A DNA stretch of 64,000 bases from Ferrovibrio sp. (GTDB taxonomy: Bacteria; Pseudomonadota; Alphaproteobacteria; Ferrovibrionales; Ferrovibrionaceae): positions 41,032 through 105,031 of the forward strand of contig NZ_JAOZVR010000052.1 in NCBI RefSeq assembly GCF_025869515.1, in the 5' to 3' direction. The notes under the pieces are model-generated. The model made no database searches and had not been told where the DNA came from. It saw only the letters and a list, made by a program, of their open reading frames with translations. Shown in pieces: positions 20,405-45,789 of the stretch (positions within the stretch are counted from its first letter, which is position 1; each line of letters opens with the position of its first letter). Both the position numbers and the translations under genes were made by a program.

Positions 20405-20950
20405 ATGACCGATCCGTCGCCCGGCCGCTCCACCTTTTCGACTGCCAGCCTGCTGCGGCGCGACTTCACGGCTGCCGACTGCCGGGAACCGGCCATCGGG
20501 CAGCTCTATGATTACTGGCGGAGCCGGCGCGGCACACACCGCTTTCCGGCACGCCAGGATCTCGATCCGATCGAGATGAAATATGCGCTGGGCGGCATCA
20601 CGATTTTCGAGGTGCATCGCGATGTGCCGCATGCCGGCGGCTTTCGCTTTCGCTACCGCCTGATCGGATCAGCCATCGTGGCGCGCGACGGCTTCGACCA
20701 TACCGGCCGCTGGCTCGACGAACTGCCGCTGCTGCAATACCGCGCGCTGCTGCTCGGCCGGCTCGAGATGCTGGCGCGCGATCCGGTGCCGCTGCTGGTG
20801 CACAACAAACAGTTCTACGATGAGCGCTGGTATGATTACGAAGCCATCTGGCTGCCACTCGCCAGCGATCATGAGCATGTCGACATGCTGATGGCCTGCC
20901 AGATTTTCGCCAGGCGGCCGTCCAGCCATGTCGGCCTGCCGGTGGCCTGA
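20405..20950 (+). CDS. PAS_5-type PAS domain protein (copy 3)
   Basis: A 181-residue stand-alone PAS_5 protein. Visible motifs are LDPIEMKYALGGITIFEVH, FRFRYRLIGSAIVARDGFDH and TGRWLDELP in the first half, then WYDYEAIWLPLASDHEHVDM and ACQIFARR near the end. It pairs with 21038-21550, which shares the same C-terminal WYDYE-IWLP-ASD and ACQIFA signatures, so this is a second tandem duplication separate from 10033-11102. No effector domain is visible, and the partner and ligand are unknown. Confidence 0.75.
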   Translation: MTDPSPGRSTFSTASLLRRDFTAADCREPAIGQLYDYWRSRRGTHRFPARQDLDPIEMKYALGGITIFEVHRDVPHAGGFRFRYRLIGSAIVARDGFDHTGRWLDELPLLQYRALLLGRLEMLARDPVPLLVHNKQFYDERWYDYEAIWLPLASDHEHVDMLMACQIFARRPSSHVGLPVA

Positions 20951-21037: not shown

Positions 21038-21550
21038 ATGCCCGATCCGCTTTCCAAAACCGCCGCCGCCCATCCGCCGGCCGAACTGATCTGGAATCCC
21101 GAACCGGAGGATTTCCGCGCAGCCGGCAGCGCGGCGGTCTATCGCTACTGGCTCGACCAGCGGCACGGCCGGCGCTTTCCCGGCCGCGCCGATATCGACC
21201 CGCTGGCAATGCGCGGCGCGCTGGGCAATATCGCGCTGATCGAGGTGCAGCATGACCCGCAGCGTTTCCGCATTCGCCTGGCCGGCACCTATCAGGCGCA
21301 GCGGCTCGGCTTCGACCCGACCGGCATGTGGCTCGACGAGCTGCCGGCACCGGAATACCGGCAGCTGCTGATCGACCGCCTGCAGGCCCTGCTGGCGCGG
21401 CCCGAGCCCCTGCTGGTGCGCAATCGCCAGCTGATGGATGACCGCTGGTACGACTACGAAACCATCTGGCTGCCGATGGCGAGCGACGGCGACAGCATCG
21501 ACATGGTGATGGCCTGCCAGATTTTCGCCGACGCGCCCCAGGGCGGCTGA
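21038..21550 (+). CDS. PAS_5-type PAS domain protein (copy 4)
   Basis: A 170-residue PAS_5 protein downstream of copy 3 (88 nt). Core motifs are RRFPGRADIDPLAMRGALGN, FRIRLAGTYQAQRLGFDPTG, WLDELPAPEYRQLL and YDYETIWLPMASDGDSIDMV. It is most similar to copy 3. The FemAB-like gene follows after 79 nt, so read-through is possible. No biochemical function can be assigned beyond probable sensing or binding. Confidence 0.75.
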   Translation: MPDPLSKTAAAHPPAELIWNPEPEDFRAAGSAAVYRYWLDQRHGRRFPGRADIDPLAMRGALGNIALIEVQHDPQRFRIRLAGTYQAQRLGFDPTGMWLDELPAPEYRQLLIDRLQALLARPEPLLVRNRQLMDDRWYDYETIWLPMASDGDSIDMVMACQIFADAPQGG

Positions 21551-21629: not shown

Positions 21630-22637
21630 ATGACCACGGCATCCCTGCATCTCGAAGCCTGCACACAGCCGGCCGACTGGGCCGCGGCGCAGACCGCCCT
21701 GCGGCTCAGCGCGCTGGAACAGAGCTGGTGCTATGGCGCGGCCACGGCTGCGGTCACGCAGGGCAAGGTGCTGCCGGAACGCTGGCTGATCCGCCGCGCG
21801 GATGACAGTCTGGCCGGACTGGCGCAGGTCTTCGTGCGCCGCATTCCTCCATTCGGCCGCTTCGTGCGGCTGGTGCGCGGACCGCTTTTCGTGCCCGGAC
21901 TGGCGCGCGCGGAGCGCGATGCGGCACTGGCGCTGATCCGCGCCGCTTATCCGTGGCGCCGGCGCTGCCTGCTGTGGTGGCTGCCGGAACTGAATGGCGG
22001 CGTGGAGTCCGAAGCAGCGATGGCCGAGCTCGGCATGCGACCGATGATGACCGGTTATTCCTCGATCCGTTACGACCTGCGGCCGGCGCCCGAGCGCCTG
22101 CGCAGCCAGCTCGACGGCAAATGGCGCAACACGCTCAAGACCGCCGAAAAATCCGCCCTGCTGATGGAAACCGCCAGCGTCGCCGCCGGCAGCTGGAATG
22201 CGGAGGCCTTCGCCGCGCTGCTGGGCGAGCATGCGCGCCACCGGCTGGAGGCCGGCTTCCTCGGCCCCGATGCGCGCTTCTATGCCGCCTTCACCGACGC
22301 GGTGAAAACAGCACCCAAAAACGGACTGGCCGGCGAGGATGCGCTGCTGGTCTGGGCCCATGCCGGCACCCATCTGGGCCGCGTGCGGCCGATTGCCGGC
22401 ATCCTGGTGCTGCGGCATGGCAATGCCGCCACCTATGCGATGGGCTGGAGCAACGAGGCCGGCCGGCTGGTGAAGGCGCATTACCGGCTGCTGTGGCAGG
22501 CGGTGCTGACGCTCCGCGCGCAGGGCGTCACCGATTTCGATCTCGGCGGCGTCGACACCCAGCGCGGCGCCGGCGTGGCCCGGTTCAAACTGGGCCTCAA
22601 CGGGTCCGTTTTCACCCTCACCGGCAGCTATATGTAG
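21630..22637 (+). CDS. FemAB/GNAT-like acyltransferase (peptidoglycan-bridge type fold)
   Basis: A 335-residue cytosolic protein with the doubled GNAT fold of FemAB-like proteins (Acetyltransf_6). Features are SWCYGAA-AVTQGK near residue 30, FVRLVRGPLFVPG near 80, LDGKWRNTLKTAEKS near 158 (the conserved KWRN-L-KA stretch), and the C-terminal FDLGGVDTQRGAGVARFKLGL. True FemX enzymes add amino acids to lipid II, but many proteobacterial members act in exopolysaccharide or unknown pathways, so substrate is open. ATG 21630 was chosen over an upstream in-frame ATG at 21591 because homology begins there. Confidence 0.8.
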   Translation: MTTASLHLEACTQPADWAAAQTALRLSALEQSWCYGAATAAVTQGKVLPERWLIRRADDSLAGLAQVFVRRIPPFGRFVRLVRGPLFVPGLARAERDAALALIRAAYPWRRRCLLWWLPELNGGVESEAAMAELGMRPMMTGYSSIRYDLRPAPERLRSQLDGKWRNTLKTAEKSALLMETASVAAGSWNAEAFAALLGEHARHRLEAGFLGPDARFYAAFTDAVKTAPKNGLAGEDALLVWAHAGTHLGRVRPIAGILVLRHGNAATYAMGWSNEAGRLVKAHYRLLWQAVLTLRAQGVTDFDLGGVDTQRGAGVARFKLGLNGSVFTLTGSYM

Positions 22638-22686
22638 GGTCGCTACAAACGCGGAATTGTGACAGCGGCACGGCCACTTAAAAAAA

Positions 22687-22927
22687 TCCCCCGATAAACC
22701 GATCCGGGGGTCGATTCCGCTTGCATCGGGGGGGAAATGGCCCCATACCCCCCTCCCAGAGACTGTTTGGAAAGTTGCGAACTGGCCGTTGGCCCCTTAC
22801 CGGAGCCAACCGGAACCACGGGGCTTTCCCAACAGTCTCTCTGCCAATCGGATACCCCCTTACTGTTACCGGGGGTGCACATTTTTCTCAGGATTGCGGA
22901 CAGCAATCCCCGTGGTGGAGAGACAGT
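22687..22927 (+). promoter_or_regulatory. Structured 5' leader of speD, candidate cis-regulatory RNA
   Basis: The 290-nt gap before speD is packed with potential RNA helices. CCCCCG/CGGGGG pairs at 22688-22693 and 22705-22710. A G7/C6 hairpin pairs 22728-22734 with 22748-22753. A long stem pairs 22758-22774 with 22824-22840 (16 of 17 pairs) and encloses a GTTGGC/GCCAAC hairpin. ACCCCC/GGGGGT pairs at 22854-22859 and 22871-22876, followed shortly by TTTTT at 22882-22886. GGATTGC/GCAATCC pairs at 22891-22897 and 22903-22909. The ribosome binding site GGAG is at 22917-22920. GTCTCTCT at 22835-22842, in the 3' arm of the long stem, can instead pair with GGAGAGAC at 22917-22924. That would give a switch between open and closed translation. 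I do not recognise a named riboswitch class. Confidence 0.6.
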
Positions 22928-23359
22928 ATGAGCAAGAACAACCTGAAGCCCGCCCTGCATGCCGTGCCGACCGACGAGGCCGCGGCCGAAGAGCATTTCA
23001 TCTGCAAGGATGGCATGCGCTATGCCGGCATGCATCTGATCATCGATCTGTGGGGCGGCAAGCACCTGGATAACCTGGCGCTGGTGAAGCAGACGCTGAC
23101 CGAGGCCGTGTCCGAGATCGGCGCGACTCTGCTCAATATCGACCTGCATCATTTCGAGCCCAATGGTGGCATCTCCGGCGTGGCCGTGCTGGCCGAGAGC
23201 CATATGTCGATCCACACCTGGCCAGAAAAGGGCTATGCAGCGCTCGACGTCTTCGTCTGCGGCGACTGCCAGCCGCAGAAGGCAATCCCGGTGCTGCGCC
23301 GCGCCTTCCTGCCCGACAACATCCAGTGCACCGAACTGAAACGGGGCCTGGTCCTGTGA
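22928..23359 (+). CDS. speD: S-adenosylmethionine decarboxylase proenzyme (prokaryotic class 1)
   Basis: A 143-residue proenzyme that self-cleaves between E90 and S91 in LAESHMSIHTWPE to form the pyruvoyl cofactor. It decarboxylates SAM, giving the aminopropyl donor for spermidine. H96 and C111 match the catalytic His and Cys of short bacterial AdoMetDCs (15-residue spacing). The length fits with a short N-terminal addition. ATG 22928 follows GGAG at 22917-22920. The stop overlaps the speE GTG start as GTGA, so SpeD and SpeE are translationally coupled. The long structured leader upstream suggests post-transcriptional control. Confidence 0.97.
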   Translation: MSKNNLKPALHAVPTDEAAAEEHFICKDGMRYAGMHLIIDLWGGKHLDNLALVKQTLTEAVSEIGATLLNIDLHHFEPNGGISGVAVLAESHMSIHTWPEKGYAALDVFVCGDCQPQKAIPVLRRAFLPDNIQCTELKRGLVL

Positions 23360-24321
23360 CCACCTGGTTCAACGAAACCCTCTACAAGGGCTTCCGCCAG
23401 AGTCACGAAGTCAGGAAGGTCCTCTTCGAGGGCAAATCGAAATACCAGCAGATCGGCGTGTTCGAGAGCGGCCGCTTCGGCCGCGTGCTCGCGCTGGATG
23501 GCGTGGTGCAGTGCACCGAGGGCGATGAATTCGTCTACCACGAGATGCTGACCCATCTGCCGATCCTGGCCCATGGCGCTGTGCAGTCGGTACTGATCAT
23601 CGGCGGCGGCGACGGCGGCATCCTGGAAGAAGTGCTGAAGCACACGGCGATCAGGCGCGTCACCATGGTCGAGATCGACGGCGACGTGATCGAGGTCGCC
23701 AAGAAGTATCTGCCGAAAATCTGCGGCAAGGCATTCTCGGACAAGCGCACCAACCTGATCGTCGGCGACGGCGCCGCCTATGTGGCCGAGACGAAAGAGC
23801 GTTACGACCTGGTGATCGTGGATCGCCCGGATCCGGTCGGCCCGGCCACCGTGCTGTTCAGCGAAGGCTTCTACCGCAACTGCCGCCGCGTCATGAAGCC
23901 GAATGGCATTCTCGTCGCGCAGAACGGCGTGCCGCATATGCAGGGCCCGGAACTGACCGAAGCCGTGAAACTGTTCCAGAAGATCTGGGTGCAGTCCGGC
24001 ACCTATCTGGCCGTGGTGCCGACCTATGTCTGCGGCTTCATGTCGATGACCTGGGCGTCTGACCGCGACATCACCGATGTCGATCCGCGCAAGGTCTTCG
24101 CCCGTTTCGACAAGGCGCGCCTGCCGGCGCTGAACTACTACAACCCGGAAATCCATTTCGGCGCGTTTGCCCTGCCCAATTTCGTCGCCCGCCTGCTGCC
24201 CATGCCGAAGAAAGCCGCAGCAAAGAAAGCGACGGCAAAGACGAAAACCGCGCCGAAGAAAGCTGCGAAGCCGCCGGCCCCGAAAAAGAAGACTGCGCCG
24301 AAGAAGAAGGCGAAGCGCTGA
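23356..24321 (+). CDS. speE: Spermidine synthase with Lys-rich C-terminal tail
   Basis: A 321-residue aminopropyltransferase making spermidine from putrescine and decarboxylated SAM. The dcSAM-binding GGGDGG is at 83-88, the acidic EID follows at 106-108, and the catalytic segment DRPDPVGPA carries D156 and D159. The catalytic domain ends near residue 282. The remaining 38 residues contain 16 lysines plus alanine and proline (AAKKATAKTKTAPKKAAK region), which is not part of the usual enzyme and resembles a histone H1 or nucleic-acid-binding tail. Translation starts at GTG 23356, overlapping the speD stop. A strong terminator follows. Confidence 0.95.
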   Translation: MTTWFNETLYKGFRQSHEVRKVLFEGKSKYQQIGVFESGRFGRVLALDGVVQCTEGDEFVYHEMLTHLPILAHGAVQSVLIIGGGDGGILEEVLKHTAIRRVTMVEIDGDVIEVAKKYLPKICGKAFSDKRTNLIVGDGAAYVAETKERYDLVIVDRPDPVGPATVLFSEGFYRNCRRVMKPNGILVAQNGVPHMQGPELTEAVKLFQKIWVQSGTYLAVVPTYVCGFMSMTWASDRDITDVDPRKVFARFDKARLPALNYYNPEIHFGAFALPNFVARLLPMPKKAAAKKATAKTKTAPKKAAKPPAPKKKTAPKKKAKR

Positions 24322-43496: not shown

Positions 43497-43508
43497 ATGC
43501 CCTCAACC

Positions 43509-43597
43509 GTCATCCTCGGGCTTGTCCCGAGGATCCATCTGCGTGTTCCGATACGCGGAGGGTTGGGATGGACCCTCGGGACAAGCCCGAGGGTGAC
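43509..43597. repeat. Double-palindrome intergenic repeat, copy d
   Basis: The most symmetric copy: left GTCATCCTCGGGCTTGTCCC...GGATCCATC, middle CCGATACGCGGAGGGTTGGG, right GACCCTCGGGACAAGCCCGA...GGGTGAC. It follows the small protein gene after 12 nt. Confidence 0.88.
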
Positions 43598-43636
43598 GAC
43601 CTGTATTGATCGTTCCGCCTGTGTCATCATCGCGGC

Positions 43637-44635
43637 ATGACCACACTCACCCTCGCCCAGGCCAACCGCTTCGCCGCCCTGCCGCTGCGCAATCTCGCCA
43701 TCGAATATCCCAACAGCCTGGCGCATTTCGTCCATGGTCCGGACGACATGCAACCGCCGCACCGGCTGCATCCGATTTTCTGGGGCAGTTACGACTGGCA
43801 TTCCTGCGTGCATGGCTGGTGGCTGCTGACGCGCTGCCTGCGCCGGCATCCCGATCTCGCCGCCGCGCCGCAGGCACTCGCGCTCTATGCGCGTTTCTTC
43901 ACAGCCGCGGCCGGCGCAGGCGAGGCCGCCTATCTCGATGCGCCGGGCCGCGGCACCTGGCAGCGGCCTTACGGCTGGGGCTGGCTGCTGGCGCTCAGCG
44001 CCGAACTCGCGCTGTGGGATCACCCGCAGGCCCGGCAGTGGCGCGCCGCGCTGCAACCGCTGGAGCAGCGCATCGTCGCGCGCTTTCCCGCCTATATGGA
44101 CAAGCTCACCTACCCGATCCGCGTCGGCACCCATTTCAATACCGCGTTTGGCCTGCTGCTGGCGCTGCACTATGCGCGCATCACCGACGAACCGACGCTG
44201 ACCCCGGCGATTGCCGCCTATGCCGAACGGGTGTTCCGCGCCGATGTCGATTATCCGGCGCATTACGAACCCAATGGCGACGATTTCCTCTCCGGCGGCC
44301 TGGTCGAGGCGCTGCTGATCGCCGAGCTGATGCCGCAAACCGACTTTGCCGCCTGGTGGAACCGCTTCCTGCCCAATGCCACAACCGTTTTCAAACCCGC
44401 CATCGTCGCCGACCGCTCCGATGCCAAGGGCGTGCATCTCGATGGCCTCAATCTTTCGCGCGCCTGGTGCCTGCGCGGCATCGCCGACGGCCTGCCGGGC
44501 GACCAGTCCGGGCTGCTGCAATCGGCGGCCGCGCATGAAGCCGCCAGCCTGCCTTTCCTCGAAAGCGGGGAGTATGGCGGCGAGCACTGGCTGGCAACCT
44601 ATGCAGCGCTCAGCATCGAAGGATTGGCAGCCTGA
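43637..44635 (+). CDS. DUF2891 family protein
   Basis: A 332-residue cytosolic protein fitting DUF2891: ALPLRNLAIEYPNSLAHFV, HPIFWGSYDWHSCVHGWWLL, WGWLLALSAELALW, GTHFNTAFGLLLAL and DGLNLSRAWCLRGIADGLP. Alternating helices with repeated aromatic and charged residues suggest an (alpha/alpha)6-barrel like glycan-active enzymes, but no activity is demonstrated for this family. It stands alone between the repeat and a convergent secreted protein gene. Confidence 0.85.
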   Translation: MTTLTLAQANRFAALPLRNLAIEYPNSLAHFVHGPDDMQPPHRLHPIFWGSYDWHSCVHGWWLLTRCLRRHPDLAAAPQALALYARFFTAAAGAGEAAYLDAPGRGTWQRPYGWGWLLALSAELALWDHPQARQWRAALQPLEQRIVARFPAYMDKLTYPIRVGTHFNTAFGLLLALHYARITDEPTLTPAIAAYAERVFRADVDYPAHYEPNGDDFLSGGLVEALLIAELMPQTDFAAWWNRFLPNATTVFKPAIVADRSDAKGVHLDGLNLSRAWCLRGIADGLPGDQSGLLQSAAAHEAASLPFLESGEYGGEHWLATYAALSIEGLAA

Positions 44636-45516: not shown

Positions 45517-45789
45517 ATGCCGACAGACCTGCGCGATATTGCCTATGACACGGTGGAGAACGCCGACATTGCCCGGCAGGAAAATGTCGGCGGCAAGCTG
45601 CGGCGGCTGAAGCGCTATGGCATTTTTTACCGTCGCCTGAATTCACGCGAACGCCTCGGCGGTCTGCTGAGCCGCATGATTGATGTCGGCATGGTGGATG
45701 GTGGCCAGCTGCTCAGTCTGCTGGTCCTGGCCTGGGGCGCCATCACCAATCGTCTGCGCCGCCGGAAAACCTCCGATCCAGCGCCCTAG
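45517..45789 (+). CDS. Small protein of unknown function (90 aa)
   Basis: Ninety residues: an acidic/polar N-terminus (PTDLRDIAYDTVENADIARQ), a basic patch GGKLRRLKRYGIFYRRLNSRE, then a hydrophobic segment QLLSLLVLAWGAITN (about residues 65-79) and a basic tail RLRRRK. No named family recognised. ATG 45517 is chosen; an in-frame TTG at 45505 is possible. Its stop overlaps the stop of the convergent gene by 4 nt. Confidence 0.5.
   Translation: MPTDLRDIAYDTVENADIARQENVGGKLRRLKRYGIFYRRLNSRERLGGLLSRMIDVGMVDGGQLLSLLVLAWGAITNRLRRRKTSDPAP

Follow-up and report, generated by a model that had tools for sequence, protein, structure and literature searches.

The speD leader of Ferrovibrio carries a conserved, irregular hairpin whose basal stem, P1, shares bases with a second helix that covers the speD ribosome binding site. 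The explanation that on balance we favour is that the speDE mRNA carries a cis-acting translational switch, specific to the genus, which is in the ON state as long as the P1 base is closed. The leader lies in a window of 64,000 nucleotides, the whole stretch of DNA analysed here, and belongs to a set of nine leaders from the genus (L010 to L018). An earlier note on this DNA had proposed a translational RNA switch; the conserved structured leader before speD and the alternative pairing over the ribosome site held up, and the additional transcription attenuation suggested for 22882-22886 did not.

Gene context and distribution

The two genes of the pathway and the elements of the leader are given in Table 1. 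The stop codon of speD and the start codon of speE share GTGA (overlap at 23356-23359), and speE is therefore probably translationally coupled to speD. Elsewhere in the same genome (G000) there are three PF02784 matches, one of which (L063) we read as an ornithine decarboxylase gene; no curated model scores above its cut-off for this gene, the best being lysA, and no Rfam RNA was found at its locus. Upstream of speD, 20405-20950 and 21038-21550 encode adjacent, similar proteins with weak similarity to a MopJ cell-cycle regulator model (51.5 and 62.7 bits, cut-off 200).

Table 1 Genes and leader elements at the speDE locus (window coordinates).
Feature	Coordinates	Strand	Description	Model match
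Putative sigma-70-type promoter	22721..22749	+	TTGCAT, 17 nt, CATACC	
5' arm of P1	22758..22774	+	Sits at the putative transcription start	
Internal loop, P2 and terminal loop	22775..22823	+	Asymmetric loop UNGCG(A/C)A / CGGGG, conserved; terminal loop length varies	
3' arm of P1	22824..22840	+	Final bases double as part of the anti-Shine-Dalgarno stretch	
Anti-Shine-Dalgarno stretch	22835..22846	+	GUCUCUCUGCCA; 9 to 17 pairs with the ribosome site in 9/9 leaders	
Spacer hairpin 1	22853..22877	+	Arms 22853-22859/22871-22877; sequence kept only in G000, G001, G002 and G005	
Spacer hairpin 2	22891..22909	+	Arms 22891-22897/22903-22909; sequence kept in G000, G001, G002 and G005	
Ribosome binding site	22913..22924	+	UGGUGGAGAGAC; GGAG 7 nt before AUG; partner of the anti-Shine-Dalgarno stretch	
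speD	22928..23359	+	Adenosylmethionine decarboxylase, 143 aa	TIGR03330, 132 bits (cut-off 75.65)
speE	23356..24321	+	Spermidine synthase, GTG start	NF002010, 354.7 bits (cut-off 260)

The hairpin core lies upstream of speD in nine of ten Ferrovibrio genomes, at a single place in each, and in the tenth (72% complete) neither speD nor the leader was detected. By DNA similarity the leader is found in 9 of 61 genomes, every one a Ferrovibrio, and speD is present in the same nine members of the genus. A covariance model, for which the best 150 candidates per genome were scored in the genus and order set, matches 10 of the 18 genomes of the order, including a weak stray in G014 (E 0.05) that was set aside, being on a different contig from the one that carries G014 speD. 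In samples of the class and the phylum, searched with stricter filters, the model matches 4 of 385 genomes, all Ferrovibrio, and 1 of 398, the window's own. Of 96 genomes, 39 gave a speD match, and 30 of those 39 lie outside Ferrovibrio; an unfiltered search of 21 of these 30 loci returned nothing convincing, the best match (15.4 bits, E 0.15) lying elsewhere than upstream of speD. Within the reach of these searches, the RNA is confined to the genus Ferrovibrio, and among the best 150 candidates scored there is no second copy of the leader elsewhere in the genome.

In the nine genus genomes the model also matches the opposite strand at the same place, because the hairpin is nearly self-complementary. 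Weak matches elsewhere in the window were rejected: 45676-45753 (20.0 bits), which lies inside an open reading frame and folds no better than shuffles (z 0.82), and 43509-43597 (21.1 and 20.3 bits on the two strands), a palindromic hairpin. The latter, at 43508-43598, is near-perfect, with 25 contiguous pairs and z -9.95, and stands just before an open reading frame at 43637; it has the look of a dispersed alphaproteobacterial palindromic repeat.

No known riboswitch class had been recognised in the earlier note, and the Rfam scan that it proposed gave the same answer. No riboswitch family matches at gathering score within the 64-kb window, and 22640-22945 searched against all 4227 Rfam families gives 9 matches at E up to 10, none convincing. 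The open-access literature yielded no printed description of the leader and no Ferrovibrio paper on a riboswitch or spermidine.

Structure and covariation of the hairpin core

The stem proposed earlier between 22758-22774 and 22824-22840 is present with 16 standard pairs and one T-C mismatch (22768/22830), and the nested hairpin and two downstream hairpins described with it all appear in the minimum-energy fold. Folding of the 245-nt leader beats 200 of 200 dinucleotide shuffles (z -3.85), and the 81-nt core in the window (22759-22839) reaches z -5.6. Across the nine leaders the core gives z -4.1 to -5.8 (200 shuffles each), with no shuffle as low in eight of them and a single one in L017. P2 is interrupted by the bulges AA (or UA) and C. 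Every leader also has a spacer hairpin in its computed minimum-energy fold, the sequence of which is not kept. The consensus fold is not the computed optimum everywhere, since in the modelled ensemble L016-L018 form the outer U-A pair of P2 at just 16-17% and L015 forms its core at just 36-42%.

Aligned over the nine leaders, the core has 54 invariant columns out of 100, and the leader outside it is hardly alignable between subgroups; in the speD comparison, 27 of 57 fourfold sites are invariant. The near-invariant bases include those of the internal loop, UNGCG(A/C)A and CGGGG, and a CCAC stretch. P1 (15 pairs and one mismatch in the aligned core) is kept in all nine leaders, and 13 of its 15 pairs never vary; the outermost aligned pair changes on both sides from G-C to A-U in three leaders, and one pair is either A-U or G-U. 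The inner stretch of P2 has three pairs changed on both sides. For P1 and P2 together, 98.3% of cells are paired and 4 pairs are doubly changed, and sliding the partners lowers the paired cells to less than 50%. Among 500 shuffles none was as high in paired percentage or in covariation score, 1 in doubly changed cells and 31 in doubly changed pairs, and further pair types are not above chance (481 of 500 as high). The nine sequences are related and have little power, and the signal is limited to four pairs. Compensatory changes, on which the earlier note had made its proposal depend, are present, and they are few.

The P1 sequence is kept beyond what pairing needs, which suggests specific recognition. 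Recognition at the level of DNA, by a transcription factor that binds an inverted repeat with no role for RNA, would fit the upper P1 arms, which form an invariant inverted repeat. We consider this very improbable, since the distance between the arms ranges with core length from 48 to 67 bases, there are invariant bases in the bulges of the predicted RNA fold, both P1 and P2 show covariation, and the helix with the ribosome site is itself kept. The controlling factor of the proposed switch could be an RNA-binding protein, perhaps an autogenous regulator, that recognises the irregular hairpin and clamps or opens its base. We put this forward tentatively: the invariant helix sequence, the invariant bulges and the single place per genome all argue for it, and against it no candidate protein was found among the three upstream neighbours, scanned with one library.

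Alternative pairing with the ribosome binding site

As proposed earlier, GTCTCTCT at 22835-22842 is complementary to GGAGAGAC at 22917-22924, which belongs to the speD ribosome site, and the helix extends to 12 pairs (22835-22846 with 22913-22924). An alternative pairing that covers the speD ribosome site is kept in 9/9 leaders of the genus, the longest runs in L010 to L018 being 12, 9, 9, 9, 11, 11, 17, 14 and 16 (14 for each of the last three under a narrower search range). The pairing in the window is equalled against the ribosome site by 5 of 5000 random window 17-mers and by 4 of 5000 shuffled copies. Runs of at least 11 are matched by 0 to 8 of 5000 random window 17-mers and 0 to 27 of 5000 shuffled copies, and chance matches to the 9-pair runs of L011-L013 are less unusual, at 141 to 157 of 5000 random stretches and 230 to 244 of 5000 shuffled ones. 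Anti-Shine-Dalgarno stretches pair better with the ribosome sites of their own leaders than with exchanged ones (sum 108 versus a mean of 98.9; 6 of 5000 permutations as high), a difference inflated by the kinship of the leaders.

Two positions of the alternative helix are changed on both sides, most clearly in L015, in which UGCC:GGUG of the other leaders becomes CACG:CGUG. For the seven distinct rows the controls are modest: 18, 143, 67 and 448 of 500 shuffles reach the observed paired cells, doubly changed pairs, covariation score and further types, respectively, and the helix slid by -3 has an equal number of doubly changed pairs.

The earlier note held that P1 and the alternative helix are mutually exclusive. 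This applies to the shared GUCUC(U) and not to the neighbouring UCUGCCA:UGGUGGA, which can form with P1 closed and coexists with closed P1 in the minimum-energy folds of L010, L012 and L013; exclusivity is therefore only partial, because the two helices compete solely for GUCUC(U). A second alternative pairing joins ACCACGGGG (22815-22823, in the invariant core) to CCCCGUGGU (22908-22916, just 5' of the ribosome site), with 9 pairs, all perfect, in L010-L013, 8 in L015 and at most 5 contiguous pairs in L014 and L016-L018. It was set aside as energetically costly, since forcing it takes 7.7 to 23.0 kcal/mol.

The closed-P1 fold and the fold with the ribosome site covered lie 0.1 to 3.3 kcal/mol apart in all nine leaders, and L015 has a third fold, more stable than either by about 1 kcal/mol. 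Eight of the nine leaders have a less accessible ribosome site, by computation, when the first five bases of P1 are kept open than when P1 is made to close, and in L016 access falls from 0.46 to 0.0001; L012 behaves in the opposite way (0.0064 with P1 closed, 0.0169 with the base held open). The ribosome sites of L010, L012 and L013 are partly paired even with P1 closed, and their computed access stays below 2% in either state. When the two pairs next to the internal loop are given a bonus of -8 kcal/mol in a model of secondary structure only, access shifts by at most 2% in eight of the nine leaders; the exception is L015, in which it rises from 0.0037 to 0.0084. In this model the switch point is the base of P1; some ten or more pairs separate the exchanged bases from the conserved loop above them.

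Such energies could also belong to a structure that responds to nothing, a constitutive hairpin that protects the 5' end and tunes translation while expression is held at a level fixed by the helix over the ribosome site. The near-equal fold energies could simply set that level, and computed access spans about a thousandfold between species (0.0004 to 0.57). We nevertheless regard this as doubtful, as 54 invariant columns, some of them unpaired, would seem to exceed the needs of stability.

Putative promoter and transcript start

The spacing of the promoter in Table 1 is identical in 9/9 genus leaders, and a pyrimidine-only stretch follows CATACC. The first purine after the -10 element is the first base of the aligned core in three leaders and the base before it in six. 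In another genus of the same family, a speD leader that lacks this RNA (L019) has, by eye, TTGCTT-17-CATATC before speD. We call the promoter putative because TTGCAT-17-CATACC is absent from the output of an E. coli-type consensus scan, which gives GTGACA-17-AAAAAT at 22659-22687; a longer transcript from that site could also occur. With the nearer promoter, 22687-22757 is probably promoter DNA and not leader RNA, and transcription would start at P1, upstream of 22840; a start downstream of that position would have spoken against the switch as the earlier note framed it. In the window, the AGAGAC at the putative mRNA 5' end is identical to the AGAGAC of the ribosome site. If the nearer promoter is right, the mRNA 5' end thus copies the ribosome site and both compete for one partner.

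At 22657-22687 there is a TGTGA-type box followed 15-17 nt later by an A tract, an arrangement that, by eye, comes back in varied form ahead of the speD promoter across the genus leaders. These elements may represent an UP element, a binding site for an activator or a further promoter.

Attenuation of transcription at 22882-22886 finds no backing in the leaders. There is no recognisable terminator, a scan of 22600-23000 finding 0 (shuffles mean 0.6); four bases separate the hairpin from the U run; and the U run is not conserved, a spacer run of at least five T being seen, by eye, in only 6/9 leaders.

A frame open from 22721 to 23359, running into speD, raises the question of a leader peptide or an N-terminal extension of SpeD, an idea with next to no probability that we rule out on account of the shifting frame and the missing start codons. 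Core lengths of 80, 81, 81, 82, 82, 84, 84, 94 and 99 shift the frame, and length modulo 3 (0 in five leaders, 2 in one and 1 in three) is not conserved, which argues against a peptide. The core contains an AUG in 5/9 leaders and none in L010-L013, and a good ribosome site precedes the ATG at 22928.

Discussion

The translational switch that we favour would work through the first bases of the transcript. Transcription would start at the first base of P1, and the hairpin would fold as soon as it is transcribed. As the ribosome site emerges, it and the mRNA 5' end would become rivals for the P1 3' arm through strand exchange. Closure of the P1 base would leave the ribosome site more accessible and the mRNA ON; opening of that base would have the site covered by at least 9 pairs and the mRNA OFF. 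The controlling factor, whether metabolite or protein, probably recognises the invariant core, formed by the internal loop and the P1 sequence. We infer that an effector exists, and the candidates are a metabolite, a protein or the state of the 5' end itself. speE would follow through the overlap of start and stop codons.

An extended form of this switch, which we think unlikely as a whole, is a novel switch RNA in which the mRNA 5' end acts as a decoy of its own ribosome site. Translation of speDE would then read the state of the first nucleotides, which could depend on where transcription starts, on 5' processing or on an effector clamping P1; that effector might be a metabolite of the pathway, bound by an undescribed hairpin aptamer.

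Two features of a translational riboswitch are found here, a conserved structured core with covariation, at four pairs, and an alternative pairing that covers the ribosome site and excludes P1, for GUCUC(U) only. In the modelled folds, the textbook aptamer-plus-platform reading appears weaker than the earlier note assumed, because stabilising the loop has no effect on the switch in 8/9 leaders. With the switch at the base of P1 in the model, a ligand bound in the internal loop would have to reach that base through tertiary or kinetic effects, which the model does not capture. It is still possible, though far from established in our estimate, that the core binds SAM, decarboxylated SAM, putrescine or spermidine, upon which P1 closes and the ribosome site opens. 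The unpaired core bases are invariant, a gene of the pathway lies downstream, and ON-type translational riboswitches have a similar architecture, in which the 3' arm of P1 competes with a helix over the ribosome site. Against this, the core persists in both modelled folds and the loop bonus clearly shifts access in one of nine leaders (L015), the predicted sign is ON whereas feedback by the product spermidine should be OFF, and the near-invariant P1 is left unexplained by a ligand loop alone. A metabolite effector is thus plausible from the downstream gene and not favoured by the geometry, and a protein fits the invariant helix as well.

Among known systems, the add-type adenine riboswitch also has a P1 whose 3' arm competes with a helix covering the ribosome site, and it too is ON at closed P1. 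Its binding junction adjoins P1, in contrast to the conserved loop of the Ferrovibrio leader, which tops P1 at the end remote from the exchanged bases. The speF motif is, like the RNA described here, an alphaproteobacterial leader of a polyamine gene. It has no match in the Ferrovibrio leader even at E up to 10, and four segments surrounding PF02784 decarboxylase genes (L063, L065, L066 and L067) likewise give none at gathering score. It is named as an orphan riboswitch candidate in PMC7266159.

The spermidine riboswitch is a variant of SAM-I found before polyamine genes including speD and speE (PMC10853860). It has an aptamer of the SAM-I type with stems P1-P4, and the example studied there acts on a transcription terminator and is OFF with ligand (PMC10853860). 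The two RNAs are alike as cis-regulatory elements before polyamine genes with two exclusive folds, and unlike in build: four stems and a terminator in the one, one irregular hairpin with the ribosome site as partner and no recognisable terminator in the other. The SAM-I family is absent among the 9 Rfam matches at E up to 10 in 22640-22945.

Bacterial RNA sensors of polyamine metabolism seem rare, and the literature searched holds a single spermidine class, the SAM-I variant. If the switch proposed here is real, it would add a second solution, compact and independent, that controls speDE in a non-model alphaproteobacterium, and would offer a clean example of a ribosome site gated by the first transcribed bases.
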